Source: Parerythrobacter lutipelagi
GTDB taxonomy: Bacteria > Pseudomonadota > Alphaproteobacteria > Sphingomonadales > Sphingomonadaceae
NCBI RefSeq assembly: GCF_005434975.1
Contig: NZ_SKCJ01000002.1
Span: 744,001 to 808,000 of the forward strand
Reading direction: 5' to 3'
DNA: 64,000 nucleotides
Part shown: one piece after another, positions 19,420-40,500 of the stretch
How the letters are laid out: each line of letters begins with the position of its first letter
Position numbering within the stretch: the stretch's first letter is position 1
Made by a program: the position numbers and the translations under genes
The notes under the pieces: generated by a model
Database searches by the model: none
The model's input: the letters and a program-made list of their open reading frames with translations, nothing else
Told to the model about the DNA's origin: nothing

Positions 19420-20601
19420 GTGACGCCCGCAGCTCGCGTCCAGTCGGCGATCGTGATCCTCGATGCCATCATCGACGCTGCGCGTTCCAATGGTGCGCCA
19501 GCGGACAGGATCATGGCGGATTGGGCCAAGGCAAACCGCTACGCCGGGTCGAAAGATCGCCGCGCGGTGCGCGAACTGGTATACGGTGCCATCCGTGATT
19601 GCGGGCCCATCCCGGCAACCGGCCGCGCAGCGATGTTGCGCCATTTTGGCGAAGATGCTGCGCTGCGGGCCTTGTTCGATGGCTCGAATTACGGGCCCGC
19701 GGCAATCGACCCGGCCGAACCGGTGGCGAAGGGCGGAGTGGCTGTCGATTGGCTGGCCAATTTGCTGGCGAAATCCGGTATCAGCCGGGAAGAGGGCGAA
19801 AGCCTGCTGGAACGCGCGCCGCTGGACATCCGCGTCAACGCTCTGAAGGCGGATCGCGGGACAGTCGAATTGCCAGAAGCAGGCGAGACGCTGGCCGCAC
19901 CGCACGCTTTGCGCTTTGCAACCGGCACGCAGGTCGAGCAATGGCCCGCCTATCGCGAAGGCCGGATCGAAGTGCAGGATCATGGCAGCCAATGGGCCTG
20001 TGCGGCGGTCAAGGCGCAGCCCGGCGAAACAATCATCGATTTGTGCGCCGGGGCAGGGGGCAAAACGTTATCGCTGGCGGCAGCGATGGACAATCGCGGC
20101 ACCCTGATTGCGAGCGACACCGACAAGCGCCGGATGGGCAATCTCCCGCCGCGTGCAGAGCGGGCCGGTGCAGGCATAATCGAAACCGTGCTGCTCGACC
20201 CGGGCAAGGAAATCGAGACCTTGGCTGACTACCGCGCCAAGGCAGACGCAGTCCTCGTCGACGCGCCGTGTTCAGGCACCGGAACATGGCGCCGCAATCC
20301 CGAGGCGCGCTGGCGGATCGATCGCAAACAGATCGAGAATTATGCCGAGGCGCAGGCGCGGTTGCTCGATATCGGATCGCAACTGGTCAAGCCCGGCGGC
20401 AGACTGGTATACGTGACTTGCTCGCTGCTCGATGCGGAAGGGATGGACGGCATCGCCGCTTTCCTGACCAGCCATCCGGCATGGACTGCACAGCCGCTCG
20501 ACCTGCCGGTCGGCCGCCAGCACGGCGCAGGAACGCGGCTCACTCCGTACCATGACGGCACGGACGGATTTTTCATCGCGAGTCTATCTTTGGCATGTTA
20601 A
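19420..20601 (+). CDS. RsmB/NOP-family RNA 5-methylcytosine methyltransferase
   Basis: This 393-residue protein has an N-terminal NusB-like helical domain (about residues 1-130) and a Rossmann methyltransferase domain. The SAM motif DLCAGAGGKTLSLA is near residue 208. The two catalytic cysteines of the family lie in VDAPCSGTGTWRRNP and YVTCSLL. It should methylate cytosine in RNA, most likely 16S rRNA, but the exact target cannot be read from sequence. The start is GTG 19420, shortly after guaB. Confidence 0.9.
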   Translation: MTPAARVQSAIVILDAIIDAARSNGAPADRIMADWAKANRYAGSKDRRAVRELVYGAIRDCGPIPATGRAAMLRHFGEDAALRALFDGSNYGPAAIDPAEPVAKGGVAVDWLANLLAKSGISREEGESLLERAPLDIRVNALKADRGTVELPEAGETLAAPHALRFATGTQVEQWPAYREGRIEVQDHGSQWACAAVKAQPGETIIDLCAGAGGKTLSLAAAMDNRGTLIASDTDKRRMGNLPPRAERAGAGIIETVLLDPGKEIETLADYRAKADAVLVDAPCSGTGTWRRNPEARWRIDRKQIENYAEAQARLLDIGSQLVKPGGRLVYVTCSLLDAEGMDGIAAFLTSHPAWTAQPLDLPVGRQHGAGTRLTPYHDGTDGFFIASLSLAC

Positions 20602-20660
20602 CGATGAAGTCTATGGCAGATTCCGCCACCTCACGACCGACTGCCGTCAAGGAGTTCATC

Positions 20661-21164
20661 ATGCGTTACGCCCCGCTTGCCGCCGCTCTGTCACTCGCGC
20701 TGGCTGTGACTTCGAGCATGGGCGCAGCGGGCGAACGCGAAGCTTCACCGCGCGCGGCGATGCTCATCGCGGAAGGCAAGGCGGCGCTGGATGCCGGGCA
20801 GCCGCAGAAGGCGATCGACGCATTCGAAGCCGCGCTGGTGGTGGATCCGGCCTATACCGGCACCTATCTGCACCTCGCCGAGGCCGCGCGCCGCGACGGG
20901 ATGCAAGGCAAGGCTATCGCCTATTACCGTGAAGTGCTGACCCGCGATCCGGACAATTTCGCTGCGATTTCGGGCGAAGGCGAAGCTCTGGTGGAGAAAG
21001 GCGCGCTGGAGAAGGCGAAGACCAATCTTGCCAAGCTTGAATCCGAATGCGGTTCGGGTTGCGCAGAGACTCAGGAACTTGCCACCGCCATCGCCCGCGG
21101 CCCGCAGCCGCGCGTGCTGGCAGCGGAAAATGTTCTGCCCGATACGCAGGTGACGCAGAACTGA
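20661..21164 (+). CDS. Secreted tetratricopeptide-repeat protein
   Basis: This 167-residue protein has a signal peptide (MRYAPLAAALSLALAVTSSM) and about three TPR units (for example AAMLIAEGKAALDAGQPQKA and AIAYYREVLTRDPDNFAAI). Such proteins act as periplasmic binding scaffolds; the partner is unknown. Two cysteines lie in SECGSGCAE. AAGGAG sits seven bases before the ATG at 20661, which settles the start over longer open-frame alternatives. It converges with rppH across a four-base gap. Confidence 0.85.
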   Translation: MRYAPLAAALSLALAVTSSMGAAGEREASPRAAMLIAEGKAALDAGQPQKAIDAFEAALVVDPAYTGTYLHLAEAARRDGMQGKAIAYYREVLTRDPDNFAAISGEGEALVEKGALEKAKTNLAKLESECGSGCAETQELATAIARGPQPRVLAAENVLPDTQVTQN

Positions 21165-21168
21165 TCAC

Positions 21169-21642
21169 TCAGATCAGCTCGCGGAATTCCCTGACCACCG
21201 CGCGGTAGACATCGCGTTTGAAGGATACGATGAGGCCCGGCAGATCTTCCGGGTCAACCCATTTCCATTCGCAGAATTCCGGCGGGTCATGCGCGTTGAT
21301 GTCGATATCCGCATCTTCGCCTTTGAAGCGCGCGAGGAACCAATGCTGTTCCTGACCGCGGTATTTGCCGCCCCATAGCTTGCCGTGCAGCTCTTCCGGC
21401 AGATCATAGCGCACCGGATGCGGCATTGCGGCGATGATATCGACCAGATCGGCGGTTACGCCGGTTTCCTCAGCCAGTTCGCGCAATGCAGCGGCCTGGA
21501 TTTCTTCACCCGGATCGATTCCGCCCTGCGGCATTTGCCATGCACCGATGTCCTTCGAATCGATGCGCTGAGCGGCGAAGACCCGGCCCTGGCGATTGGC
21601 CAGCATCACCCCGGCACAGGGGCGGTAATTGCGTTCCGACAT
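21169..21642 (-). CDS. rppH: RNA pyrophosphohydrolase (Nudix)
   Basis: This 157-residue protein removes pyrophosphate from 5' triphosphate RNA ends and so starts RNase E-type decay. It has the RppH pattern [21 protein letters not shown], the [11 protein letters not shown] segment, and the Nudix box with [12 protein letters not shown]. The C-terminal [13 protein letters not shown] stretch is also typical. It may be cotranscribed with the esterase gene, which ends upstream on the same strand 11 bases away. Confidence 0.94.
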
Positions 21643-21653
21643 GCGTAGTGAAC

Positions 21654-22604
21654 CTATCCGTAGCGTCCGAGCTTGACCTTGATCGCTCCGAGGAACGCTT
21701 CGAGGTCTGACTGCCCGCTCGGTATAGCCTTACGCAAAGTTGTAAACCCGTGAATGATACCGGGAAATTCGAAGTAACTGACTTCGGTGCCCTGCTGGAT
21801 CAGATGCGCTGCGTATTCGCGGCCCGAATCGCGCAAAGGGTCGAGCCCTGCGGTGCAGATCACGGTCGGCGGGGTGTTGTCGCACGGCCCGACCATCGGC
21901 GTGTGGCGCGGATCGCTGGCATCGCCGCCATACTGCTCGGTAAACCAGGCCATCGCCGCGCCGGTCAGAAGAAAACCCTCGGCAAAGGATGCTAGGCTGG
22001 AATGCTGGCTGACATCGCTGGCGACCGGATAGATCGGGGCCTGGACAACCACCGGCACATCGGCCGGGTCGGCCATCAGCTGGTTGGTGGTGACAATGGT
22101 CAGGTTCCCGCCTGCGCTATCCCCGGTGATGACCAGTCCGGTAATGTCCCGCCCCAGCGCTTCGGGTGATGAGGCAATCCAGCGCGCGGCAGCTTCGCAA
22201 TCGTCGGGCGCGGCGGGGAAGGGGTGTTCTGGCGCGAGGCGATAGTCGACCGACACCACGGGCAGGTCGAGATGGTGCGAGATCTCCGTACACAGATTGT
22301 GATAAACCTCGAGATCGCCGATCACGAAACCGCCGCCGTGGATGAATATGACGCAGGGGCCGGGATCGCGGTTTTGTTGCGTATCGTATAGCCGCAGCGG
22401 GATCTCGCCCGCAGGGCCGGGACAGGCCAGGTCCCTGACCACTGCCAGCGGCCGCGCTTCGGCTTCCGCGACCGAGCCAAGGACGCGCATCTGTTCGCGG
22501 CCCTCCACAGCGCCGACTTCCTCCACGCCCTGGCTGCCCATCTGCTCCAGCATGGCCAGAAAGGCCTTCACATCGTCGCGCACAAAATGCTCGGTATCGG
22601 CCAT
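21654..22604 (-). CDS. Alpha/beta hydrolase of the HSL (family IV) esterase type
   Basis: This 316-residue protein shows the hormone-sensitive-lipase group motifs: HGGGFVIGD for the oxyanion hole, [15 protein letters not shown], and the nucleophile elbow GDSAGG. The acid and histidine are in DPLRDSG and IIHGF. It should hydrolyse short-chain carboxylic esters in the cytoplasm. Its start at 22604 is 172 bases from divergent korA. The natural substrate is unknown. Confidence 0.9.
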
Positions 22605-22776
22605 GGTATTTCTCTCCCTGATCGCTTTGCCGACAGCTTAGCGGCCCGCTGCCCCTTTTCCACTCGACATTTTGCCAGTAGCAGAGAAAAACTTGATTGC
22701 GGGAGCAGGACCGGGTGCATAGGTGCCCGGCTCGACCACAAGGCGCGGCGGGCAGTCGCGCACGAAAAGGAATTTT

Positions 22777-24717
22777 ATGGCTACGCAGGCCAAGGCGCCT
22801 CTCACCGAAAATCCCGAAGCCGTTGTTGTCCGTTTTGCCGGGGATTCCGGCGACGGTATGCAGCTGACCGGCGGGCAGTTCACCCTCTCGACCGCATTGG
22901 CGGGCAACGATCTGGCGACCTTCCCCGATTTCCCGGCGGAAATTCGCGCCCCGCAAGGCACGCTGTTCGGCGTTTCCGCGTTCCAGATCAATTTCGGCAG
23001 CCGCGAGATCAACACCGCAGGTGACGCGCCCGATGTGCTGGTCGCGATGAACCCGGCCGCGCTCAAGACAAATATAGCCGCGCTCAAACCGGGCGGGCTG
23101 GTGATCGCCGACACGGGCGCCTTCACCAAGCGCAACCTCGACAAGGCGCATTACAGTGCCAACCCGCTGGAAGATGACAGCCTCGCGAAATACGATGTGC
23201 TGGCGTTCGACATCAGCGAAAAGACGATCGAAGCGGTCAAGCCGTTCGGCCTAGGCAACAAGGACGCGCTACGCTCCAAGAACATGTGGACCCTCGGCCT
23301 CGCGCTGTGGATGTTCGACCGCCCGCGAGAGCCGATCCACGACTGGCTGAAGGCCAAGTTCAAGTCCAAGCCTGATATTGCCGATGCCAATATTGCTGCA
23401 CTCGATGCGGGTCATGCTTACGGCGAAACGGCCGAACTGGCCGGTCCGATGAAGCAATACACGATCGAGCCGGTCGAAAGCGATCCGGGGCTCTATCGCA
23501 CGATCACGGGCGCGGAAGCGGTGTCGCTCGGCCTTGTGGCTGGCGCGCAGCTGGCTGAATTGCCGATGTTCTTCGGCGGCTATCCGATTACGCCGGCCTC
23601 CGCGATCCTGCATCATCTGGCGCGGCTGAAGGAGTTTGGTGTCACCACCTTCCAGGCGGAAGACGAGATTGCCGCGATCTGCGCCGCCATCGGCGCGAGC
23701 TATGCGGGCAGCCTTGGCGTTACCTCGTCATCCGGCCCCGGCATTGCGCTCAAGGGCGAGGCGATGGGCCTTGCCATCATGACCGAGCTGCCGCTGGTCA
23801 TCGTCAACAGCCAGCGCGGCGGCCCGTCGACCGGCCTGCCGACCAAGACCGAGCAGAGCGACCTCTATCAGGCGGTCTATGGCCGCAATGGCGATGCGCC
23901 GATGCCGGTGGTGTCATGCTCCAGCCCGGGCGATGCGTTCGAAGCAGCGATCGAGGCCTGCCGGATTGCGGTGGAATACATGACCCCCGTCATGCTGCTG
24001 ACCGACGGCTATATCGCCAACGCAGCCGAGCCGTGGAAGGTGCCCGATCCGGCCAATTATACCCCGTTCCCCGCGAAATTCCTCGAGCAGAAGAACGGCA
24101 CCGATAGCGCGGGCGGCGAGACATTGTTGCCGTACAAGCGCGATGAAAAGGGTGCGCGTCCGTGGATCAAGCCGGGCACGCCCGATCTGATGCACCGCAT
24201 CGGCGGGATCGAGAAAGCGGTCGATACCGGCCACATCGACTATGCGCCCGACAACCATCAGGCGATGACCGACGCACGACGTGACAAGGTGCTGGGCGTG
24301 GCCGTGCCCGATCAGGAAGTTTGCCTGGGTGACACCTCGGGCAAGCTGGCGGTGGTCGGTTGGGGATCAACCTTCGGCCCGATCCATCAGGCGGTGCGCC
24401 GAGCGCGGGCCAAGGGCGTCGACGTCAGCCATATCCATGTCCGCTACATCTGGCCGCTGCCGGGCAACCTCGGGGATTTGCTCAAGTCCTTCGACCATGT
24501 GCTGGTGCCGGAAATGAACACCGGCCAGTTCAAGACTGTGCTGCGTGACCAGTTCCTCGTCGATGCGCAGCCGCTCACCAAGACCAGCGGCCAGCCATTC
24601 CAGATCGCAGAGTTGGAAGAGGCCATCGGCAAATTTTTCGATGGGATCGAAGGCAACGAGGGCGGCGAGGTGCCGGTTAATGACCAGCAGTTGCCGAGCC
24701 CGGAGGCGGATGGATGA
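22777..24717 (+). CDS. korA: 2-oxoacid:ferredoxin oxidoreductase, fused gamma-alpha subunit
   Basis: This 646-residue protein joins an N-terminal gamma domain (RFAGDSGDGMQLTGGQF) to an alpha domain (GGYPITPASAILHHLA, then the PP-type region with TSSSGPGIALKGEAMG). With KorB it oxidatively decarboxylates 2-oxoglutarate or a similar acid to the CoA thioester with thiamine pyrophosphate and reduces ferredoxin. The substrate is inferred from the family and not proven. AAAAGG precedes the ATG at 22777. Its stop overlaps a small membrane-protein gene (ATGA), which in turn overlaps korB. Confidence 0.9.
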   Translation: MATQAKAPLTENPEAVVVRFAGDSGDGMQLTGGQFTLSTALAGNDLATFPDFPAEIRAPQGTLFGVSAFQINFGSREINTAGDAPDVLVAMNPAALKTNIAALKPGGLVIADTGAFTKRNLDKAHYSANPLEDDSLAKYDVLAFDISEKTIEAVKPFGLGNKDALRSKNMWTLGLALWMFDRPREPIHDWLKAKFKSKPDIADANIAALDAGHAYGETAELAGPMKQYTIEPVESDPGLYRTITGAEAVSLGLVAGAQLAELPMFFGGYPITPASAILHHLARLKEFGVTTFQAEDEIAAICAAIGASYAGSLGVTSSSGPGIALKGEAMGLAIMTELPLVIVNSQRGGPSTGLPTKTEQSDLYQAVYGRNGDAPMPVVSCSSPGDAFEAAIEACRIAVEYMTPVMLLTDGYIANAAEPWKVPDPANYTPFPAKFLEQKNGTDSAGGETLLPYKRDEKGARPWIKPGTPDLMHRIGGIEKAVDTGHIDYAPDNHQAMTDARRDKVLGVAVPDQEVCLGDTSGKLAVVGWGSTFGPIHQAVRRARAKGVDVSHIHVRYIWPLPGNLGDLLKSFDHVLVPEMNTGQFKTVLRDQFLVDAQPLTKTSGQPFQIAELEEAIGKFFDGIEGNEGGEVPVNDQQLPSPEADG

Positions 24718-25064
24718 GGTTTGGTTCGTTCGCAATCGTGGTTGGAGCAACGGTCATATCCCTGTTCCCAGTGGTGTGGATAGCCGATCTTCAGTCGAAG
24801 TACTGGATCGCAGGGTGTTGGGGATTGCTGGTCGGCGGGGGCTTGGCCTACTTTATCGACAAACGATTGGAAGTCCCTTCTGGCCATAATAACCGGGTGC
24901 AAGCACTAGTCTACGCAATGGTTTTACCGGTTGTGCTAATCGGACAACATTTAATCGAGACGAACGCTCCGGCCGAATTGCTGAGCCTGCTTTGCATTGT
25001 ATTCTCGTTTGGTATGTCACTCGACATGATCGCCTCGCCAGCTCTTGAAAGTGAAATTCAATGA
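24714..25064 (+). CDS. Small membrane protein inserted between korA and korB
   Basis: I do not recognise this 116-residue protein. It has about four membrane helices: residues 4-23, 30-48, 63-80 and 88-105. Its ATG overlaps the korA stop by 4 bases and its stop overlaps the korB ATG by 4 bases, so all three should be translated in sequence. Hand count of bases 24901-25020 gives 56 of 120 G+C (47%), against 82 of 120 (68%) for 25501-25620 in korB. The odd composition suggests recent origin or acquisition, yet the tight overlaps argue that it is expressed. Confidence 0.75.
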   Translation: MRFGSFAIVVGATVISLFPVVWIADLQSKYWIAGCWGLLVGGGLAYFIDKRLEVPSGHNNRVQALVYAMVLPVVLIGQHLIETNAPAELLSLLCIVFSFGMSLDMIASPALESEIQ

Positions 25065-26110
25065 ACGCACCCGTTAAGATCGAAACCACGCTCAAGGACT
25101 GGGAAACCGACCAGGAAGTTCGCTGGTGCCCGGGTTGCGGGGACTACGCGATCCTGAAGGCCGTGCAGCGCACGCTGCCGCAGCTGGGGGCGGACCCGTC
25201 GAACACCTGCTTCATCAGCGGGATCGGCTGTTCGAGCCGCTTCCCCTATTACATGGAGACATACGGTTTCCACACGATCCACGGCCGCGCGCCGGCGGTG
25301 GCGACCGGTGTGAAACTGGCCAATCCAGATCTCGATATCTGGCTGGTGACCGGCGACGGTGACGGATTATCCATTGGCGGCAATCACTTGATGCATGTTC
25401 TTCGCAGGAATGTGAACATGCAGATCATGCTGTTCAACAACGAGATTTACGGCCTGACCAAGGGGCAGGCTTCACCCACCAGCCGCGAAGGGACCAAATC
25501 GCCTTCGACCCCGCTGGGGAGCTATGACCATCCCGCGCGACCTGCCGCCTTTGCGCTGGGCTCGGGTGCCCGCTTCGTCGGTCGCGGGTTCGACGTGTCG
25601 AAGAATCTGCCCGATGTGCTCAAGGCGGCACACGCCCATCAGGGCGCGGCCTTCATCGAGATTTTCCAGAACTGCATCGTCTACAACAAGGACGTGTTCG
25701 ACGATTTCGCGGCGCCCAAAGGGGCGGAAGATCGCCAGCTGTGGCTGGAGAATGGCAAGCCGATGCTGTTCGCTAAAGACACCAAGGGGCTGACGCTCAA
25801 CCGCGAGAAGCTTTGTCTCGAAGTGGTCGATGTCGCCGCCGGTGAAGACGGCTCACCCGATTGGGAAGCGGCTGACGTGATTGTCCATGATGTCACCAAT
25901 CGCACCGTGGCGCATATGTTGGTCGAAATGCCGTTCGGGCCATTCCCGATGGCGCTGGGCGTGCTGTATGACGATCCGCGCCCGACTTTCGAAAGCGCGG
26001 TCGTCGAAGAGCGCGCACGGGCGAGTGCAGGCAAGGACGCAAACCTCGCCAAGCTGCTTGGCAAGGGGCAGACTTGGACGGTCAGCGGTACGGCGCAGGA
26101 TCCTGTCTGA
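25061..26110 (+). CDS. korB: 2-oxoacid:ferredoxin oxidoreductase beta subunit
   Basis: This 349-residue protein binds thiamine pyrophosphate and the iron-sulfur cluster of the complex. It has WCPGCGDYAILKA, GIGCSSRFPYYM, the TPP site GDGDGLSIGGNH and the LFNNEIYGLTKGQ stretch. Length fits the two-subunit KorAB type. Together with KorA it offers a ferredoxin-linked route beside the usual 2-oxoglutarate dehydrogenase. The start is the ATG inside the stop overlap with the preceding small gene. Confidence 0.93.
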   Translation: MNAPVKIETTLKDWETDQEVRWCPGCGDYAILKAVQRTLPQLGADPSNTCFISGIGCSSRFPYYMETYGFHTIHGRAPAVATGVKLANPDLDIWLVTGDGDGLSIGGNHLMHVLRRNVNMQIMLFNNEIYGLTKGQASPTSREGTKSPSTPLGSYDHPARPAAFALGSGARFVGRGFDVSKNLPDVLKAAHAHQGAAFIEIFQNCIVYNKDVFDDFAAPKGAEDRQLWLENGKPMLFAKDTKGLTLNREKLCLEVVDVAAGEDGSPDWEAADVIVHDVTNRTVAHMLVEMPFGPFPMALGVLYDDPRPTFESAVVEERARASAGKDANLAKLLGKGQTWTVSGTAQDPV

Positions 26111-26263
26111 CACGCAGCTTTCCTACTCGCACACAGCTGGGCTAAGGTGCTGAAATGGCCATAGTCCCCACTCTGTTCACTGCTGTTTCAGGCCAGCATA
26201 CACGGGGCGAAAAACCTTGCTTTGAACAGTGTTCCACATGTTCCACTTGGGTCCGCGCCGCGC

Positions 26264-27178
26264 ATGGATAATCTGACTCACTCCCTCGTTGGCGCATTGC
26301 TCGGACAGGCGGGGCTGAAAAAGAAGACGGGCCTTGCGATGCCCGCGCTGATCATCGGGGCGAACCTGCCCGATGTCGACGCGGCGTGCCTTTTCTGGCT
26401 CGAAGGGGTCGAGCATCTCGGCTTCCGGCGCGGGATTACGCATGGGCCGCCCGCGCTGGTGCTGCTCCCGCTGATACTCGCGGGGCTGTTGTGGGGCTTC
26501 GACCGCTGGCAAACGAAACGCGGCAAGCGACCGGAAGGGCGGCTGCCGATCAGTTTCAAATGGCTCTTCCTGCTGAGCTTTATCGGCTGCCTGACCCACC
26601 CTGCGCTCGACTGGCTCAACGTCTACGGCATCCGCTTGCTTGAGCCGTTTTCGAGCCAGTGGTTCTATGGCGATACGCTGTTCATCATTGATGTGTGGCT
26701 TTGGGCGCTGATGGGCTTTGCCACATGGTTCTCGCTGCGCCGGGAGAAGCGGGGCGGGGAGTGGATGCGGCCTGCAAGGATCGCGATTGCCGTGGCGCTG
26801 GCGTATATCGGGCTGAATTGGATCAACACACAACTCGTGATTTTGCACGCCCCATCCTTTGATGACCCTATTATGAGCCCCGTGCCAATCAAGTTTTGGG
26901 AGCGCGAAATCATAGCTGATAACGGAGACGGTACTTACCTGATCGATTATGAAGAGGTCGGCGATGCGATGCTTTTGCAGCAATGCGATCTGGATTCGGC
27001 ACGAGCGGAAAACTCAGAAGTCGAAGCCTTCCTTTTCTGGTCCCGTGCGCCCTTTGCAGAGTTTGCGCCCGATGGCTCCGTCCTCCTCCGAGATGCGCGC
27101 TTCTACGATCCGCGTGCGCGTGACCGTTTTTCTGTCGCGCTGCCCGATGTGAAGTGTGAGGAACTTCCTGACCCTTGA
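26264..27178 (+). CDS. YdjM/DUF457-type membrane-bound metal-dependent hydrolase
   Basis: This 304-residue protein starts MDNLTHSLVGALLGQAG. It has the conserved HS, NLPDVDA, ITHGP and CLTHPALDW motifs of the YdjM/DUF457 family, with about four to five membrane helices in the first 210 residues and a soluble C-terminal domain. Metal-dependent hydrolase activity is inferred from the conserved His and Asp pattern. The ATG at 26264 is used; a TTG 14 codons upstream is less likely. Confidence 0.82.
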   Translation: MDNLTHSLVGALLGQAGLKKKTGLAMPALIIGANLPDVDAACLFWLEGVEHLGFRRGITHGPPALVLLPLILAGLLWGFDRWQTKRGKRPEGRLPISFKWLFLLSFIGCLTHPALDWLNVYGIRLLEPFSSQWFYGDTLFIIDVWLWALMGFATWFSLRREKRGGEWMRPARIAIAVALAYIGLNWINTQLVILHAPSFDDPIMSPVPIKFWEREIIADNGDGTYLIDYEEVGDAMLLQQCDLDSARAENSEVEAFLFWSRAPFAEFAPDGSVLLRDARFYDPRARDRFSVALPDVKCEELPDP

Positions 27179-27180
27179 AC

Positions 27181-27266
27181 CGTCATTTCGAGCGTAGCGA
27201 AGCAATCCAGAGCCGAGTGCGATACGCCCTGGATTGCGGCGGCGACTGTGTCGCCTCGCAATGACG
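27181..27266. repeat. Dispersed palindromic intergenic repeat
   Basis: CGTCATTTCGAG (27181-27192) faces CTCGCAATGACG (27255-27266), and GCAATCCAG (27202-27210) faces CTGGATTGC (27229-27237). The whole element folds as a long imperfect hairpin. It resembles the CGTCATTGCGAG-type repeat spread between genes in many alphaproteobacterial genomes. No second copy was noticed in this window. Confidence 0.7.
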
Positions 27267-27294
27267 GATGAGGGGCAATCGTGACAGGGAACCA

Positions 27295-28683
27295 ATGACC
27301 AAACCACAAATCGTATGGCTAAGGCGCGACCTGCGCATGGCGGACAATCCGGCGCTGTACCACGCGGCGCAGGCCGGGCCTGTGGTCGCAGTCTATGTTC
27401 TGGATGACGAAAGCCCCAAGCATCACAGCCTGGGCGGGGCGTCGCGCTGGTGGCTGCACCATTCTCTCGAGAGTTTGTCGAAAAGCCTTGGCGCGCGCAA
27501 CGCGAGGCTGGTGCTGCGGCGCGGCGATGCGATGGAAGAATTGATGGCGGTCGCGCACTCGGTCGGCGCGCAAACCATCCACGCCAACCGCCACTACGAG
27601 CCGTGGTGGCGCAAGCTGCAGGGCGAGCTTGCAGCAGAAATCGATCTGCAGCTTTACGACGGCAACTACCTCTTCCCGCCCGGCGCAATCACGACCGGTT
27701 CGGGCGATCCGTACAAGATCTACACCCCGTTCTCGAGATCCGCGCTTCAGGCAATGCCGCCGCGCGACGAACTGCCCGAGCCGGAAACGCTCTCCTCGCC
27801 CGACGAATGGCCTGCATCGGACGAACTGTCAGACTGGGGCCTGCTACCGACCAAGCCGGACTGGGCGGGCGGCTTGCGCGCTTTCTGGGAAGTCGGTGAA
27901 CGCGCCGCGCACGACCGTCTCTACTGGTGGCTGGGCGAAGTCGACAAATATGACGAGGGTCGCAATTTTCCGTCGGTCGACGAAACCAGCCGCCTGTCGC
28001 CGCATCTGCATCACGGCGAAATCTCGCCGATCCAGATCTGGCACTGCTTCAAGAACAAGCGCAGCCAGGGATGGAAGACGTTCGAGAAAGAGCTGATTTG
28101 GCGCGACTATGCGCAGAACGTAATCTGCCAGTTTCCTGACTACGCGACGACAAGCTATCGCGACGGTTGGGAAGAGATGGGTTGGCGCAACCCAAATCGC
28201 GGGCACATCATTCAGGAAGAGCTCGAGGCATGGCAGCAGGGGCGCACCGGCTATCCGATTGTCGATGCCGGAATGCGCCAGCTGTGGCAAACGGGCTGGA
28301 TGCACAACCGCGTGCGAATGATCGCGGCGAGTTTCCTCATCAAGCATTTGCTGATCGACTGGACCCATGGAGAACGGTGGTTCTGGGATACACTGGTCGA
28401 TGCTGATTACGGTTCCAACGGCACCAACTGGCAATGGGTGGCGGGCACCGGCGTGGACAGCAATATGTTCGTGCGGATCATGGCGCCGCTGAGCCAGTCG
28501 GAGAAATTCGACGCGGCAGGGTATATTCGGGAATACGTGCCTGAACTCGCCGGACTTTCGGACACGACGATCCACGACCCTGAGGAGCATGGCTGCAAGC
28601 CGGAGGATTATCCGTCCAAAATTATCGGCCACCGTGAAGCCCGGGAGCGAGCGCTGCAAACCTATCGTGAAATGAAGGGTTAG
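27295..28683 (+). CDS. phrB: Class I deoxyribodipyrimidine photolyase
   Basis: This 462-residue enzyme repairs UV-induced pyrimidine dimers using light, FAD and an antenna cofactor. It has the N-terminal WLRRDLRMADNPAL signature, the middle FAD-binding domain with WRDYAQNVI and the C-terminal DGERWFWDTLVDADYGSN-like stretch with NWQWVAGTG. The ATG at 27295 has GGGAA ahead of it. A long intergenic repeat separates it from the preceding gene. Confidence 0.94.
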   Translation: MTKPQIVWLRRDLRMADNPALYHAAQAGPVVAVYVLDDESPKHHSLGGASRWWLHHSLESLSKSLGARNARLVLRRGDAMEELMAVAHSVGAQTIHANRHYEPWWRKLQGELAAEIDLQLYDGNYLFPPGAITTGSGDPYKIYTPFSRSALQAMPPRDELPEPETLSSPDEWPASDELSDWGLLPTKPDWAGGLRAFWEVGERAAHDRLYWWLGEVDKYDEGRNFPSVDETSRLSPHLHHGEISPIQIWHCFKNKRSQGWKTFEKELIWRDYAQNVICQFPDYATTSYRDGWEEMGWRNPNRGHIIQEELEAWQQGRTGYPIVDAGMRQLWQTGWMHNRVRMIAASFLIKHLLIDWTHGERWFWDTLVDADYGSNGTNWQWVAGTGVDSNMFVRIMAPLSQSEKFDAAGYIREYVPELAGLSDTTIHDPEEHGCKPEDYPSKIIGHREARERALQTYREMKG

Positions 28684-28724
28684 CGCGCTTGCCCGCAGCG
28701 CAGGGCGGCGGCATAGATGCCTCC

Positions 28725-29978
28725 ATGGCGTCGAGAGGCATGACATCGGATAATTCGGGTAGGGGCAAAGCCCTGCTTGCGGGCGCGTCACGATTCGAAC
28801 GCAAGCCCGGCCTGATCGCGCGAACGGTCGCGCCAGCCTTTGAAACCATCCTGGACAAGGTGGATCAGGGGATGGAATGCGGTGTGATGCACGGGCATCT
28901 GCCTGACGGCACGACCCGCGTTCTGGGTGGCCGAAATCCCGGTTTCGAAGCGCATGTGAACCTCAATGACTGGCGCGGCCTGATGCGGCTGGCAACCAAC
29001 GGTTCGATTGGCTGGTACCAGGCGTGGGAGGCGGGCGAGTGGGACAGCCCTGACCCGGTTCCAGTGTTTGCGCTGTTCGCCGCCAATGGGGATGCACTGG
29101 GCGAGACGGGCCGTGCCTCAGGGCCATTCCGATGGGCGGCGCGCTTTGCGCACTGGCTTAATCGCAACACCAAATCCGGGTCGGAGCGCAACATCAATGC
29201 GCACTACGATCTGGGCAATGATTTCTACCGCCAGTGGCTCGACCCGACGATGAGTTACTCCTCCGCACTGTTCGCGGCCGATTGCGATCTCGAGACGGCG
29301 CAGCGAAACAAGTGGCAAGCGCTGACAGACCGGCTTGGGTCTCCCGACGGCTTGCTGGAAATCGGCTGCGGTTGGGGCGGCTTGTCCGACCATTTCGCCA
29401 GAGGCGGGGCAAGCGTCACCGGGATCAGCCTGTCGGACGAGCAGCTGGCGTGGGCGCGCGAGCGGCACGACCCCTCGATCTCGTTCCTCAAGCAGGATTA
29501 TCGCGACACGGATGGCAAATTCGACGCGATCGTCAGCGTGGAAATGGTCGAAGCGCTTGGGCGGGAATACTGGCCCACCTTCATGGACTGCATCGCGCGC
29601 AATCTGAAGCAAGGCGGCAAGGCTGCGATCCAGTATATCTCGATCAGGGACTCGCTGTTTGATTCCTACGCCAAAAGCGCGGATTTCATTCAGGCTTACG
29701 TCTTCCCCGGCGGCTTGCTGATCCGGACCAGCGAATTCCGCCAGTTGGCTGAAGAACGCGGCCTTGCATGGCGCGACCAGCACGACTTCGGGATCGACTA
29801 TGCCGAAACCTTGAAGGTCTGGCGGGAGAATTTCGATCGCGCATCTGCTGACGGCAACCTGCCTGCCGGCTTTGACCAGCGGTTCCGGCGGCTATGGCGG
29901 TATTACCTGATGTATTGCGAGGGCGGGTTCCGCGGTCGCGGGATCGACGTTCATCAAGTGACACTTGTGAAGGAATAG
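28725..29978 (+). CDS. cfa: Cyclopropane-fatty-acyl-phospholipid synthase family methyltransferase
   Basis: This 417-residue protein has an N-terminal lipid-binding region and a SAM-dependent methyltransferase domain. It shows INAHYDLGNDFYRQWLDPTM, the SAM motif LEIGCGWGG, EMVEALG and the C-terminal YYLMYCEGGFRGRG. Family members add a methylene group to unsaturated acyl chains of membrane lipids. Start choice is uncertain: ATG 28725 is used, and ATG 28740 is the alternative; neither has an ideal ribosome-binding site. The next gene starts three bases after the stop. Confidence 0.87.
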   Translation: MASRGMTSDNSGRGKALLAGASRFERKPGLIARTVAPAFETILDKVDQGMECGVMHGHLPDGTTRVLGGRNPGFEAHVNLNDWRGLMRLATNGSIGWYQAWEAGEWDSPDPVPVFALFAANGDALGETGRASGPFRWAARFAHWLNRNTKSGSERNINAHYDLGNDFYRQWLDPTMSYSSALFAADCDLETAQRNKWQALTDRLGSPDGLLEIGCGWGGLSDHFARGGASVTGISLSDEQLAWARERHDPSISFLKQDYRDTDGKFDAIVSVEMVEALGREYWPTFMDCIARNLKQGGKAAIQYISIRDSLFDSYAKSADFIQAYVFPGGLLIRTSEFRQLAEERGLAWRDQHDFGIDYAETLKVWRENFDRASADGNLPAGFDQRFRRLWRYYLMYCEGGFRGRGIDVHQVTLVKE

Positions 29979-29980
29979 AT

Positions 29981-31168
29981 GTGAAATATTGCCCAACGGT
30001 CGCGATGATTCTGGCAGCCGGATTGCTTTCAGCCTGCAGCACTGTTCCATCAGACGAGTCGGCTACGGGCAAGCTCTCGAATGTCACAATGAGCATGCCG
30101 AAGGGCGAAGTCGTGATGGACGGTGCGCAGATACTCGCATGGGATGATGCCACACGGTCATCGCGCTTCCGCAAGATGGAAGACTTCTTCCCTGGCCTTG
30201 AGGTAGCGCCGCCAAGCAACCCAATCAAATTGGAGCGCGGCAACGCACTGAACGGGAATCTCGTCGCTGAGCTTGATGCCTTTATGGCCGACACCAACGC
30301 CGCGGGTGTTATGGTTTTGCAGGATGGCAAGATTCGTTATGAGAAATACGCACTGGGTTTTGGTCCGGAGCAGCGCTGGACCAGCTTTTCAGTGGCGAAG
30401 AGTTTCACTTCGACCCTGATGGGCGCAGCCTTGAAGGACGGATACATATCGAGTCTTCAGGATCCGGTTTCGCAATACATCACCGGTCTGAAAGGCAGCG
30501 CATATGACGACGTGTCCGTCGAACAGCTGGCCACGATGACATCTGGCGTGCGTTGGAACGAGGACTACACCGATCCCACAAGCGACGTGGCCCTGATGTT
30601 CAACACGACGCCGGAGCCAGGACAGGACCAGGTCGTCGAATATATGAAAAACTTGCCGCGTGAAGCGCCCGCAGGCGAGAAGTTTGTCTACAAGACCGGC
30701 GAGACCAACCTGATCGGCGTACTGGTCGAGGAAGCGACCGGGCGCAGGCTTGCCGATTATGCTGCGGAGAAGATTGTCGGCCCGGCTGGCTTCGAAGGCT
30801 CGCTGTTCTGGCAGACTGACTTGTCCAACCGCAATGTCGGTGGCTGCTGCCTTTCGCTAAGGCTCGCGGATTACGCGCGTTTTGGGCAATTCGTGCTTGA
30901 GGGCGGCGGCAATGTCGTTCCCGCTGGATGGTTTGAAGACGCGGGGGACTCGAAAGTCCAGTTCGGTGGTGGATTCGGCTACGGCTACCAATGGTGGACC
31001 TATCCGGTCGATAATTTCGGGGCGCAGGGTATCTTCGGACAAGCGATCACCATCGTGCCGGAAAATAACCTCGTGATTGCCGTCGTTAGCAATTGGCCAA
31101 GTGCAACGAGCCGCGAGAACCGGCTCAAACTGTTGATGGCGAGTGCGGCAATCGCCCAGGGTGAGTAG
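29981..31168 (+). CDS. Class C beta-lactamase-type serine hydrolase lipoprotein
   Basis: This 395-residue protein has a lipoprotein signal ending in LLSAC (Cys17) and the serine hydrolase motif SVAKSF. VYKTGETN serves as the Y-x-N region. This is the beta-lactamase (Pfam 00144) group, which includes esterases and D-aminopeptidases, so real beta-lactam hydrolysis is not implied. The start is GTG 29981 with AAGGA six bases ahead; longer open-frame starts overlap cfa. It follows cfa by two bases and probably shares its transcript. Confidence 0.86.
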   Translation: MKYCPTVAMILAAGLLSACSTVPSDESATGKLSNVTMSMPKGEVVMDGAQILAWDDATRSSRFRKMEDFFPGLEVAPPSNPIKLERGNALNGNLVAELDAFMADTNAAGVMVLQDGKIRYEKYALGFGPEQRWTSFSVAKSFTSTLMGAALKDGYISSLQDPVSQYITGLKGSAYDDVSVEQLATMTSGVRWNEDYTDPTSDVALMFNTTPEPGQDQVVEYMKNLPREAPAGEKFVYKTGETNLIGVLVEEATGRRLADYAAEKIVGPAGFEGSLFWQTDLSNRNVGGCCLSLRLADYARFGQFVLEGGGNVVPAGWFEDAGDSKVQFGGGFGYGYQWWTYPVDNFGAQGIFGQAITIVPENNLVIAVVSNWPSATSRENRLKLLMASAAIAQGE

Positions 31169-37556: not shown

Positions 37557-40500
37557 ATGGCCTATGCCCCGTTCATTCCGCTGCGCGTTCTTTCGTCCTA
37601 CTCGATGCTGGAAGGGGCGATCGATCCCAAGGCAATCGCCAAGCTGGCCAAGGAACGCGGTTTCCCGGCGATTGCGATCGCCGATCGCAACGGACTTTAC
37701 GGAGCGGTCATGTTCGCTTCGGCCTGCATGGAAACGGGTATCCAGCCGATCATCGGAACGCTGCTCGGCGTTGCACGTGACGAGGAAGGGCGACGGGTCG
37801 ATTACCTGCCTCTCTATGCGCAGGACGAGACCGGATATGACAATCTGTGCCACCTGGTCTCAAAAGCCCATCTCGACCGGCCGCTTGAGTTTGATCCGCA
37901 TGTTCAATTGGCAGACATGGAAGGCCACAGCGATGGTCTGATTGCGCTGACCGGTGCGAGCGAAGGCGCGCTGACGGATTTGCTGGCCAATGGGCAGGCA
38001 GATGCAGCTGAAGCCTTGCTGGACAAGTTGACCAGCCTGTTCCCCGGCCGTCTTTACATCGAGTTGGCGCGGCGCGGCAATTTATCCGAAGATACCGCCG
38101 AGAACGCGCTGATCGACCTTGCCTATGCGCGTGATTTGCCGCTGGTCGCGACGAACCCGGCCAATTTCGCCGAACCGCACATGCACAAGGCGCATGATGC
38201 GATGTTGTGTATCGCGGGGTCAACACACATCGAGGCGGAAGACCGGGCCAGATCAAACAAGGAAGCCTGGGTGAAGTCGGCATCGATGATGCAGGAATCC
38301 TTTGCTGACCTGCCAGAGGCAATGGCCAATACGCTCGTGATTGCGCAGCGCTGTGCTTATGCCCCGCCTTATCGTGATCCGATCCTGCCGAGTCTCGCCG
38401 GCGATCTGGAAGGCGAGGCGAAAGCGCTTGCGGACGACGCCCGCAAGGGTCTCGAGGCGCGGCTTGAACCCTATGGCGAGATGTCGGACGAAGAGCGCAA
38501 GGTCTATTTCGACCGGCTCGACTTCGAGGTCGGCGTCATCAACCAGATGGGCTTCCCTGGCTACTTCCTGATTGTTGCTGATTTCATCAAATGGGCTAAG
38601 GATCACGACATTCCCGTGGGGCCGGGGCGCGGTTCGGGCGCAGGATCGCTGGTCGCTTGGTCGCTCACCATTACCGATCTCGATCCGATCAAGCTGGGCT
38701 TGCTGTTCGAACGCTTTCTCAATCCGGAACGTGTGTCGATGCCCGACTTCGACATCGATTTCTGCGAGACCCGGCGCGGCGAAGTCATCCGCTATGTGCA
38801 GCAGAAATACGGCCACGATCACGTCGCGCAGATCATCACCTTCGGCAAGCTGAAAGCGCGCGCTGTCTTGCGCGACTGCGGGCGTATTCTGCAGATGAGC
38901 TACGGCCATGTCGACCGGCTGTGCAAGATGGTGCCGAACCACCCGACTGACCCGTGGACCTTGCCCCGCGCACTCAACGGTGCAGCCGAATTCAGGCGCG
39001 AGTACGAGAACGACAACGAAGTGAAGCGGCTGGTCGATCTGGCGATGAAGCTGGAAGGTTTCCCGCGCAACAGTTCAACCCACGCTGCGGGTGTGGTGAT
39101 TGGCGACAGGCCGCTGGCGCAACTCGTCCCGCTCTATCGCGATCCGCGCTCGGATATGCCGGTGACGCAATACGACATGAAAAATGTCGAGAGTTCCGGT
39201 CTGGTCAAATTCGACTTCCTCGGTCTGAAAACCCTGTCGGTTCTGCAGAAAGCGGTGAAGCTGCTGGGAAAACGCGGGATAGAGCTTGATCTCGGCGCTC
39301 TCGCCTGGGACGATCCGGCAGTCTACGAGCTGATGAAATCGGGCAATACGGTCGGCGTTTTCCAGCTGGAATCGGAGGGCATGCGCCGCACGCTGACGGC
39401 GGTCAAACCGACCAAGTTCGAAGACATTATCGCGCTGGTCAGTCTCTACCGCCCGGGCCCGATGGACAACATCCCGCTGTTCGGCAAACGCAAGGCTGGC
39501 GAGGTCCCGATCGAGTACCCGCACCCGAAGCTGGCTGAAATTCTCGAAGAAACATACGGGATTTTCGTCTATCAGGAACAGGTGATGCAAGCCGCGCAGA
39601 TCCTTGCGGGATACTCGCTCGGTGACGCTGATCTCCTGCGCCGCGCGATGGGCAAGAAGAACCAGGCAGAGATGGACAAGCAGCGCGCCCGCTTCATCGA
39701 AGGCTGCGCCGCAAATTCCGGTATCGAAGCGAAGAAGGCGTCTGAACTGTTCGACTTGATCGACAAGTTTGCCGGCTACGGTTTCAACAAGTCGCATGCC
39801 GCCGCTTACGCACTGCTCGCCTATCAGACAGCGTGGCTCAAGGCGCACTATCCGGAAGAATTCTATGCTGCTTCGATGTGTTTCGATATGCACCAGTCGG
39901 AGAAGCTGGCGCTGTTCGTCGACGATGCGCGCCGCCACGGGATCGAGGTCGCGCCGCCTGACGTAAACCGCTCTGTGGCTGAATTTTCTGTCGAGCGGAC
40001 GGATGATGGCTATGCCGTGCGTTATGCCTTGGCGGGCATCCGCAACGTTGGCGAGAAAGCGATGGAAGCGCTGGTCGCCGAGCGCGAGGCGCATGGCTGG
40101 TTCGAGAATTTGCAGGAGTTTTTCGAGCGGTTGCCCAAGGGCAGCATGAACTCACGCCAGCTTGAGGGCCTGATCTGTGCCGGTGCGCTCGATCGGCTCG
40201 AGCCCAATCGGGCCAGGCTGTTCAAGAACGCCGATCTGCTGCTGGCAGTCGCGGAAAGCGCTGCGCGGGAACGCGAAAGCGGGCAGGGTGGCCTGTTCGG
40301 CGGCGAAGAAGCCTCGACTGACACGTTGCGCCTGAAGGAAACCGAGGAGTGGTCGCGCGCTGACAAGATGGCGAAGGAGCGGGAGAATTTCGGCTTCTAT
40401 TTTTCGGCCCATCCAGTCCAGCAACATTGGCAGGTTGCCTCCGCCAATGGAGCACGAACATATCAAAGCCTGATGGAATCCGGTGCCCCGCCGGGCGGCC

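Follow-up and report, generated by a model that had tools for sequence, protein, structure and literature searches.

The seam between korA and korB has been invaded repeatedly in Sphingomonadaceae by differing small genes and repeats, and often by membrane genes. The window, which is the whole 64,000-nt stretch of Parerythrobacter lutipelagi DNA that was analyzed, contains one such insert, an orphan gene for a protein of 116 residues. We regard this gene as probably a recently acquired orphan encoding a four-helix inner-membrane protein, which captured a Shine-Dalgarno sequence and became coupled to korB and which is not a fixed subunit of Kor, the 2-oxoacid:acceptor oxidoreductase. We infer that its predicted product would be an accessory protein of the membrane in its own right.

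Results

The inserted gene and its neighbors

The features of the locus are listed in Table 1. The length, strand and coordinates of the inserted gene in the first-pass annotation were exact, as were the four-base ATGA overlaps with korA and korB. The low G+C content of the insert was also confirmed; however, the reported size of the contrast (47% versus 68%) did not hold at full length, at which we found 51.0% over the 343 inserted bases and 61.3% in korB. The GC content by codon position was 0.56/0.39/0.57 in the inserted gene and 0.65/0.46/0.79 in korA, and the pattern of the inserted gene reads as coding. An opening of at least 110 codons in any forward frame occurred in approximately 5.6% of composition-matched random 351-mers, and the open length, taken alone, is weak evidence for a gene. 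The membrane character is stronger evidence than the open length. In particular, the protein has three hydropathy peaks; when 827 random ORFs of 90-180 residues were simulated, none had three or more such peaks. Additionally, a single-sequence AlphaFold model of low confidence (pLDDT 57.8) contained four helices (residues 3-22, 29-53, 59-82 and 87-115), which agrees with the earlier description of a small membrane protein.

Table 1. Features of the korA-korB locus in the window
Feature	Position	Strand	Evidence
korA, 2-oxoacid:acceptor oxidoreductase alpha (gamma-alpha fusion type)	22777..24717	+	TIGR03710, Pfam POR, POR_N
Shine-Dalgarno GGAGG in the korA tail, 7 nt ahead of the insert ATG	24702..24706	+	duplex energy of -9.5 kcal/mol with the 16S tail
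Orphan gene for a 116-residue membrane protein	24714..25064	+	open reading frame, 116 codons
ATGA overlap, korA end and inserted gene start	24714-24717	+	read from sequence
ATGA overlap, inserted gene stop and korB start	25061..25064	+	read from sequence
korB, 2-oxoacid:acceptor oxidoreductase beta	25061..26110	+	Pfam TPP_enzyme_C above cut-off

The naming of korA was supported by TIGR03710, which the protein matched as an alpha subunit with 644 bits (cut-off 482.75). The naming of korB was less exact: the protein scored 247.3 bits with TIGR02177, just below the cut-off of 261.9 and aligned over residues 21-210 only, and 100.1 bits with Pfam TPP_enzyme_C, above the cut-off, and it is best described as KorB/PorB-like. 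The genome of the window also encodes SucA, and Kor is therefore not its sole route from 2-oxoglutarate. Furthermore, 66 of 298 family genomes had no korB match at E 1e-60, which, together with the presence of SucA, fits a gene pair that tolerates invasion.

Search for relatives of the inserted protein

The 116-residue protein had no match above cut-off in Pfam or NCBIfam. An identity as signal peptidase II was rejected, since the Peptidase_A8 match reached 12 bits against a gathering score of 25 (E 0.24) and the NCBIfam lipoprotein signal peptidase match reached 14.3 bits against a cut-off of 321. Among the 298 family genomes, only the genome of the window was matched at E < 1e-3, and three further genomes matched weakly (E 0.002 to 0.008). 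Searches of the genome collection and of plasmids, phages and viral contigs gave no relative, and we therefore set aside a plasmid or phage origin. A phrog match of unknown function (E 0.0009, 19.6 bits) was too weak for use, a PDB match (E 0.045) had the look of chance, and Rfam gave no match within positions 20000-30000 of the window.

Both sister species from the genus also differed from the window, as one had a tight seam and the other had a membrane ORF of 135 residues in the seam with no detectable similarity to the 116-residue protein. The first-pass annotation had raised the possibility of a newcomer, and the absence of the gene from the other genomes among the 298, including both sister species, bears this out. 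It had also proposed a comparison of the kor operons of relatives, which revealed other inserts in the same seam but not the same gene elsewhere; the protein is not kept in korAB-bearing relatives in the manner of a conserved KorAB membrane subunit. Relatives living away from kor were sought with a profile from an alignment of inserts (A2) over 397 family genomes, with at most ten candidates per genome scored. The strong matches were the profile's own members at kor, and the rest were weak (E 0.0018 or more); because kor inserts absent from the alignment (e.g., L102) escaped the profile and the candidates were so limited, this result is weak evidence against relatives elsewhere.

Elsewhere in the window, an ORF of 168 residues (positions 37753-38256, reverse strand) had a third-position GC of 0.42 and a four-base overlap with an upstream ORF of 229 residues. 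Neither ORF had a Pfam match, and the former could be another newcomer.

Survey of korA-korB seams

The seams were collected from genomes with listed korB places and from 80 further contigs, a part of all korB genomes, with one genome per species; as the loci were listed by korB score, the set is biased to near relatives of the window. Loci with identical korB were merged, L001 was left out as a duplicate of L003, and L002, L006 and L007 were left out as weak matches away from kor. The gap was 20 nt or less in 161 of the 258 distinct Sphingomonadaceae junctions and was exactly -4 in 113. Gaps above 20, 60 and 200 nt were found in 97, 86 and 37 junctions, respectively. In the other families of the order, 9 of 40 junctions exceeded 20 nt, one exceeded 60 nt and none exceeded 200 nt, and no ORF of at least 20 residues was listed in the junctions above 20 nt. 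Two probable mis-joins (L388, gap -100; L447, gap -1026, the latter among the junctions from outside the family) were entered as tight.

The inserts were classified by simple hydropathy and length rules and by repeat tags based on peptide motifs chosen by eye, such that one locus may count in two classes. Larger membrane ORFs (at least 90 residues and at least two hydropathy peaks; 100-160 residues) were found at 19 of the 258 loci, and clear mutual similarity was absent for most of them. One-helix ORFs of fewer than 46 residues were present at 24 loci, which brings membrane ORFs of both sizes to 43 loci. Other ORFs of at least 60 residues were found at 15 loci, repeat-like sequence at 28 and the class "other" at 17. 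This frequency of membrane ORFs among the seams counted is not predicted by a purely neutral model of newcomers.

A Pfam scan of 20 cargo proteins gave six matches (Bflower twice, DUF6572, isochorismatase, HicA and HicB), and apart from repeats and the toxin-antitoxin pair, no recognized mobile gene was found among these 20. In L382 and L384, the HicA/HicB pair, an isochorismatase-like ORF (by eye) and two more ORFs lie between korA and korB. A Pfam isochorismatase was also present at the kor seam of L178, which belongs to a distant branch. Among the open-licence papers listed, we found no report of kor-seam inserts or of the microprotein described below.

Comparison with other seams

We compared the kor seam with four other seams of the same family. 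Gaps above 20 nt were found at 0 of 30 ispE-FGase seams, at 0 of 27 nnr-rlmD seams (3 of 30 loci were dropped for want of the upstream gene) and at 2 of 7 ligA-cinA seams (8 of 15 loci had no ligA match beside cinA). Of the genomes that these control sets share with the kor set, 10 of 27 and 8 of 24 had a kor gap above 20 nt. The ispE-FGase and nnr-rlmD results suggested a hotspot confined to Kor, and this was overturned by trpB-trpA. The trpB-trpA gap exceeded 20 nt at 12 of 28 loci and, after the addition of 20 genomes (15 above 20 nt; 19 taken from the ispE control), at 27 of 48; two loci without both genes had been dropped from the 30 and from the 50. Both seams were available for 41 genomes, of which 24 were invaded at trpB-trpA and 14 at kor.

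The cargo of trpB-trpA was also comparable. Small membrane ORFs were found at 7 of the 48 loci (L457, L462, L466, L474, L483, L491 and L493), a rate like the 43 of 258 at kor. Mutually similar DUF559-type genes were found at five loci (L472, L483, L492, L500 and L502; Pfam was run on the gene of L483), and some inserts lacked a sizeable ORF. The kor seam is thus prone to invasion, yet this is not specific to Kor, which argues against a dedicated Kor tether; a membrane tether at trpB-trpA would make no obvious sense.

Two further observations were made at trpB-trpA. The genome of the window itself has a 1322-nt insert there (L483, G000:C2:648822-651582), which contains a DUF559 gene together with a membrane ORF; the latter, of approximately 164 residues, abuts trpA and has no similarity to the kor insert. 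In addition, the inserts of L487, L488, L489, L494 and L498 measured 175-187 nt with no listed ORF above 23 codons and are possibly a common element.

History of the inserts and kinship among them

The inserts were placed on a FastTree tree of korB with 296 rows, with 2 of the 298 rows left out. The presence or absence of an insert required 72 changes, and the larger membrane inserts required 16 changes for 19 rows, the soluble inserts 13 for 15 and the similar microproteins 8 for 16; these counts are approximate, because many branches were poorly supported (in an earlier korB tree of 208 rows, 74 of 205 were drawn open). Sister rows on the tree held differing contents (L128 and L131; L068, L072 and L079). 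Conversely, similar inserts joined distant branches, as found for the two best homologous pairs of membrane inserts, L031-L124 (E 3e-12) and L037-L014 (E 1e-14 to 1e-15). By korB, L031 and L037 are sisters, yet their inserts match different loci.

A chain of weak similarity among 17 larger membrane proteins takes in the window protein, which matched L128 at E 0.0026 when about 66 proteins were compared, and these similarities suggest that the larger membrane inserts may be not fully independent. With leave-one-out profiles, 8 of the 17 scored at least 12 bits and above all three decoys (L014, L015, L037, L055, L068, L102, L124 and L128). In contrast, six, including the window protein at 5.7 bits, did no better than at least one decoy, and a reversed decoy of L050 reached 11 bits. 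With block-shuffled decoys, no pair that included the window protein reached z 3. These decoy results indicate that part of the homology signal reflects generic membrane composition. In helix 2, one glycine was invariant in an alignment of 10 rows and nearly invariant in one of 14, and the alignments contained no strongly conserved motif besides it. The homology of the larger membrane inserts thus appears partial and uncertain.

Translation signals at the seam

The inserted gene starts where korB does in most relatives and thus lies behind the strong Shine-Dalgarno sequence of the korA tail (Table 1), whereas the energy at korB of the window was only -1.8 kcal/mol. From these positions, the newcomer appears to use the signal that serves korB in relatives. 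Across the loci, the median energy of the korB signal was -4.15 behind gene inserts (n 34) and -7.1 at tight seams (n 127; p 4e-8); the weakening is in part mechanical, as it would follow from any new sequence placed ahead of korB. For first inserted ORFs that start within 12 bases of the korA end (n 28), the median was -6.4, which was like that of korB at tight seams (p 0.59). The chosen ORF had a four-base overlap with the korA end in 17 of 34 gene inserts and with the korB start in 20 of 34.

These features suggest the following course of events. A new gene would enter the stop/start overlap of korA and korB and take over the Shine-Dalgarno sequence in the korA tail. Judging from the new ATGA overlap, ribosomes that end at the stop codon of the insert may re-initiate on korB, by which the insert would be co-expressed with Kor. 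Loss of insert translation would then lower KorB, which may help to keep the insert. We also considered transposition with a four-base target duplication, which was rejected since the ATGA at the korB start belongs to korB and the ATGA at the korA end is missing in several inserts (L005, L014).

A one-helix microprotein at the kor seam of other genera

Similar one-helix ORFs of approximately 26-35 residues, picked by eye, were found at 16 of the 258 seams (L231, L234, L343, L347, L110, L197, L211, L198, L205, L214, L340, L342, L345, L376, L381 and L387). Genes of this size tend to be skipped by standard annotation. The sequence often has K-P near the start and a core of P-L followed by hydrophobic residues, and in at least 11 of the 16 the ORF shares 4 to 11 bases with the korA end. 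It persists beside repeats or other ORFs in L340, L342, L347, L381 and L387; the last was tagged for its 134-residue membrane ORF only, yet contains the microprotein as well.

The ratio of non-synonymous to synonymous changes was below 1 in all eight microprotein pairs computed. In four independent pairs, we counted 37 synonymous and 22 non-synonymous changes over approximately 82 and 242 sites, respectively, and the pairs compared thus bear signs of purifying selection. All 16 rows fall outside a 172-row clade that comprises the window, which has no microprotein, and its nearer relatives; this clade, free of similar microproteins, holds 16 of the 19 larger membrane inserts. On these grounds, the microprotein seems a better candidate than the 116-residue gene for a membrane peptide linked to Kor. 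It is quite doubtful, however, that the microprotein, at roughly 27 residues, holds the otherwise soluble Kor at the membrane near its electron acceptor and that larger membrane proteins, the 116-residue one among them, were recruited instead where it was lost, for example in the relatives of the window.

Discussion

Role and origin of the inserted gene

The first-pass annotation proposed that the protein tethers Kor to the membrane or links it to electron transfer. This was not sustained for the inserted gene, as 161 of 258 seams are tight, the larger inserts lie dispersed over the korB tree, and trpB-trpA has undergone comparable invasion. A wider version, in which the protein anchors KorAB to the membrane or serves it as an electron-transfer adaptor and separate lineages brought differing membrane proteins to one site, is unlikely in our estimation. 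Synthesis between the two subunits would, on that account, place the complex at the membrane, and we give this little credence. The account could explain the 43 loci with membrane ORFs (19 larger, 24 one-helix), the purifying selection on the microprotein of 16 rows picked by eye (8 of 8 pairs below 1), its co-occurrence with a 134-residue membrane ORF in L387 and the concentration of 16 of the 19 larger inserts in the clade that lacks it. It sits poorly with the gaps of 20 nt or less at 161 of 258 seams, with membrane inserts of the same kind at trpB-trpA and with the lack of any strongly conserved motif besides one glycine in the aligned larger proteins.

Origin by descent is also improbable, namely that a fast-evolving four-helix family resided at the seam ancestrally and was lost many times, with the window gene as a local diverged copy. 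Against it, homologous pairs span separate branches of the korB tree, and the contents of sister rows are unlike; the window protein is among the 6 of 17 not above at least one decoy (one reversed decoy, that of L050, itself reached 11 bits), and no pair with it reached z 3 against block-shuffled decoys. Nevertheless, the larger inserts have their size and hydropathy pattern in common, 8 of 17 rose above decoys at 12 bits or more, and the helix-2 glycine was invariant in 10 rows. An origin within the seam itself, de novo from inserted non-coding sequence (for example, the repeats present at many of these seams), likewise has little to commend it. Both seams often carry short non-coding or repeat inserts (28 repeat-tagged and 17 "other" loci at kor and several trp loci), and one study reportedly links de novo genes of yeast to membrane proteins (PMC7005711). 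Such an origin is at odds with the coding-like codon-position pattern of the window ORF, with its three hydropathy peaks, a number that none of the 827 random ORFs simulated (90-180 residues) attained, and with the known domains in other inserts (HicA, HicB, isochorismatase, Bflower and DUF6572 at kor; DUF559 at trp). We therefore favor a recently acquired gene.

A gene so acquired shows a route by which a new membrane gene can come into an operon with tight overlaps and leave it intact: it would take the ribosome-binding signal of the upstream gene tail and hand the ribosomes on through a new overlap. If this is true, some stop/start overlaps of enzyme-subunit pairs are regular entry points and cheap places for catching very young genes. 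The case also warns that operon position alone is a poor guide to function. The one-helix kor microprotein, for its part, is a small and directly testable gene.

Comparison with known systems

The korA and korB genes of the window encode the same type of enzyme as KorAB and other two-subunit 2-oxoacid:ferredoxin oxidoreductases (TIGR03710, TIGR02177). The window differs from the korAB loci of its relatives, where a tight seam is commoner, in having a membrane gene between the subunits. To our knowledge, such a gene is no part of this two-subunit family.

Cytochrome bd is itself a membrane enzyme, whereas KorAB is soluble, and this difference has to be kept in mind when the kor microprotein, a candidate partner of Kor, is compared with CydX. 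CydX, CydY and CydZ are described as small proteins of cytochrome bd operons (PMC4325964). The kor microprotein resembles CydX in size and setting, in being a very short and sequence-variable peptide encoded with oxidoreductase subunits (PMC4325964), and we found it to be a short one-helix peptide with signs of purifying selection. The window protein, in contrast, is larger than CydX and has no shown relation to it.

The kor seam is also comparable to the horizontal-transfer hotspots between core genes of Oliveira et al. 2017 (PMC5635113), since the flanking genes are constant and the cargo turns over. Differing cargo between the same flanks was indeed found, with 97 of 258 seams above 20 nt and 72 changes on the korB tree. 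By its flanks and cargo, the kor seam is a candidate hotspot. Unlike the hotspots of that paper, it is a four-base stop/start overlap within an enzyme-subunit pair, and what it holds is in most cases one short gene or a repeat.
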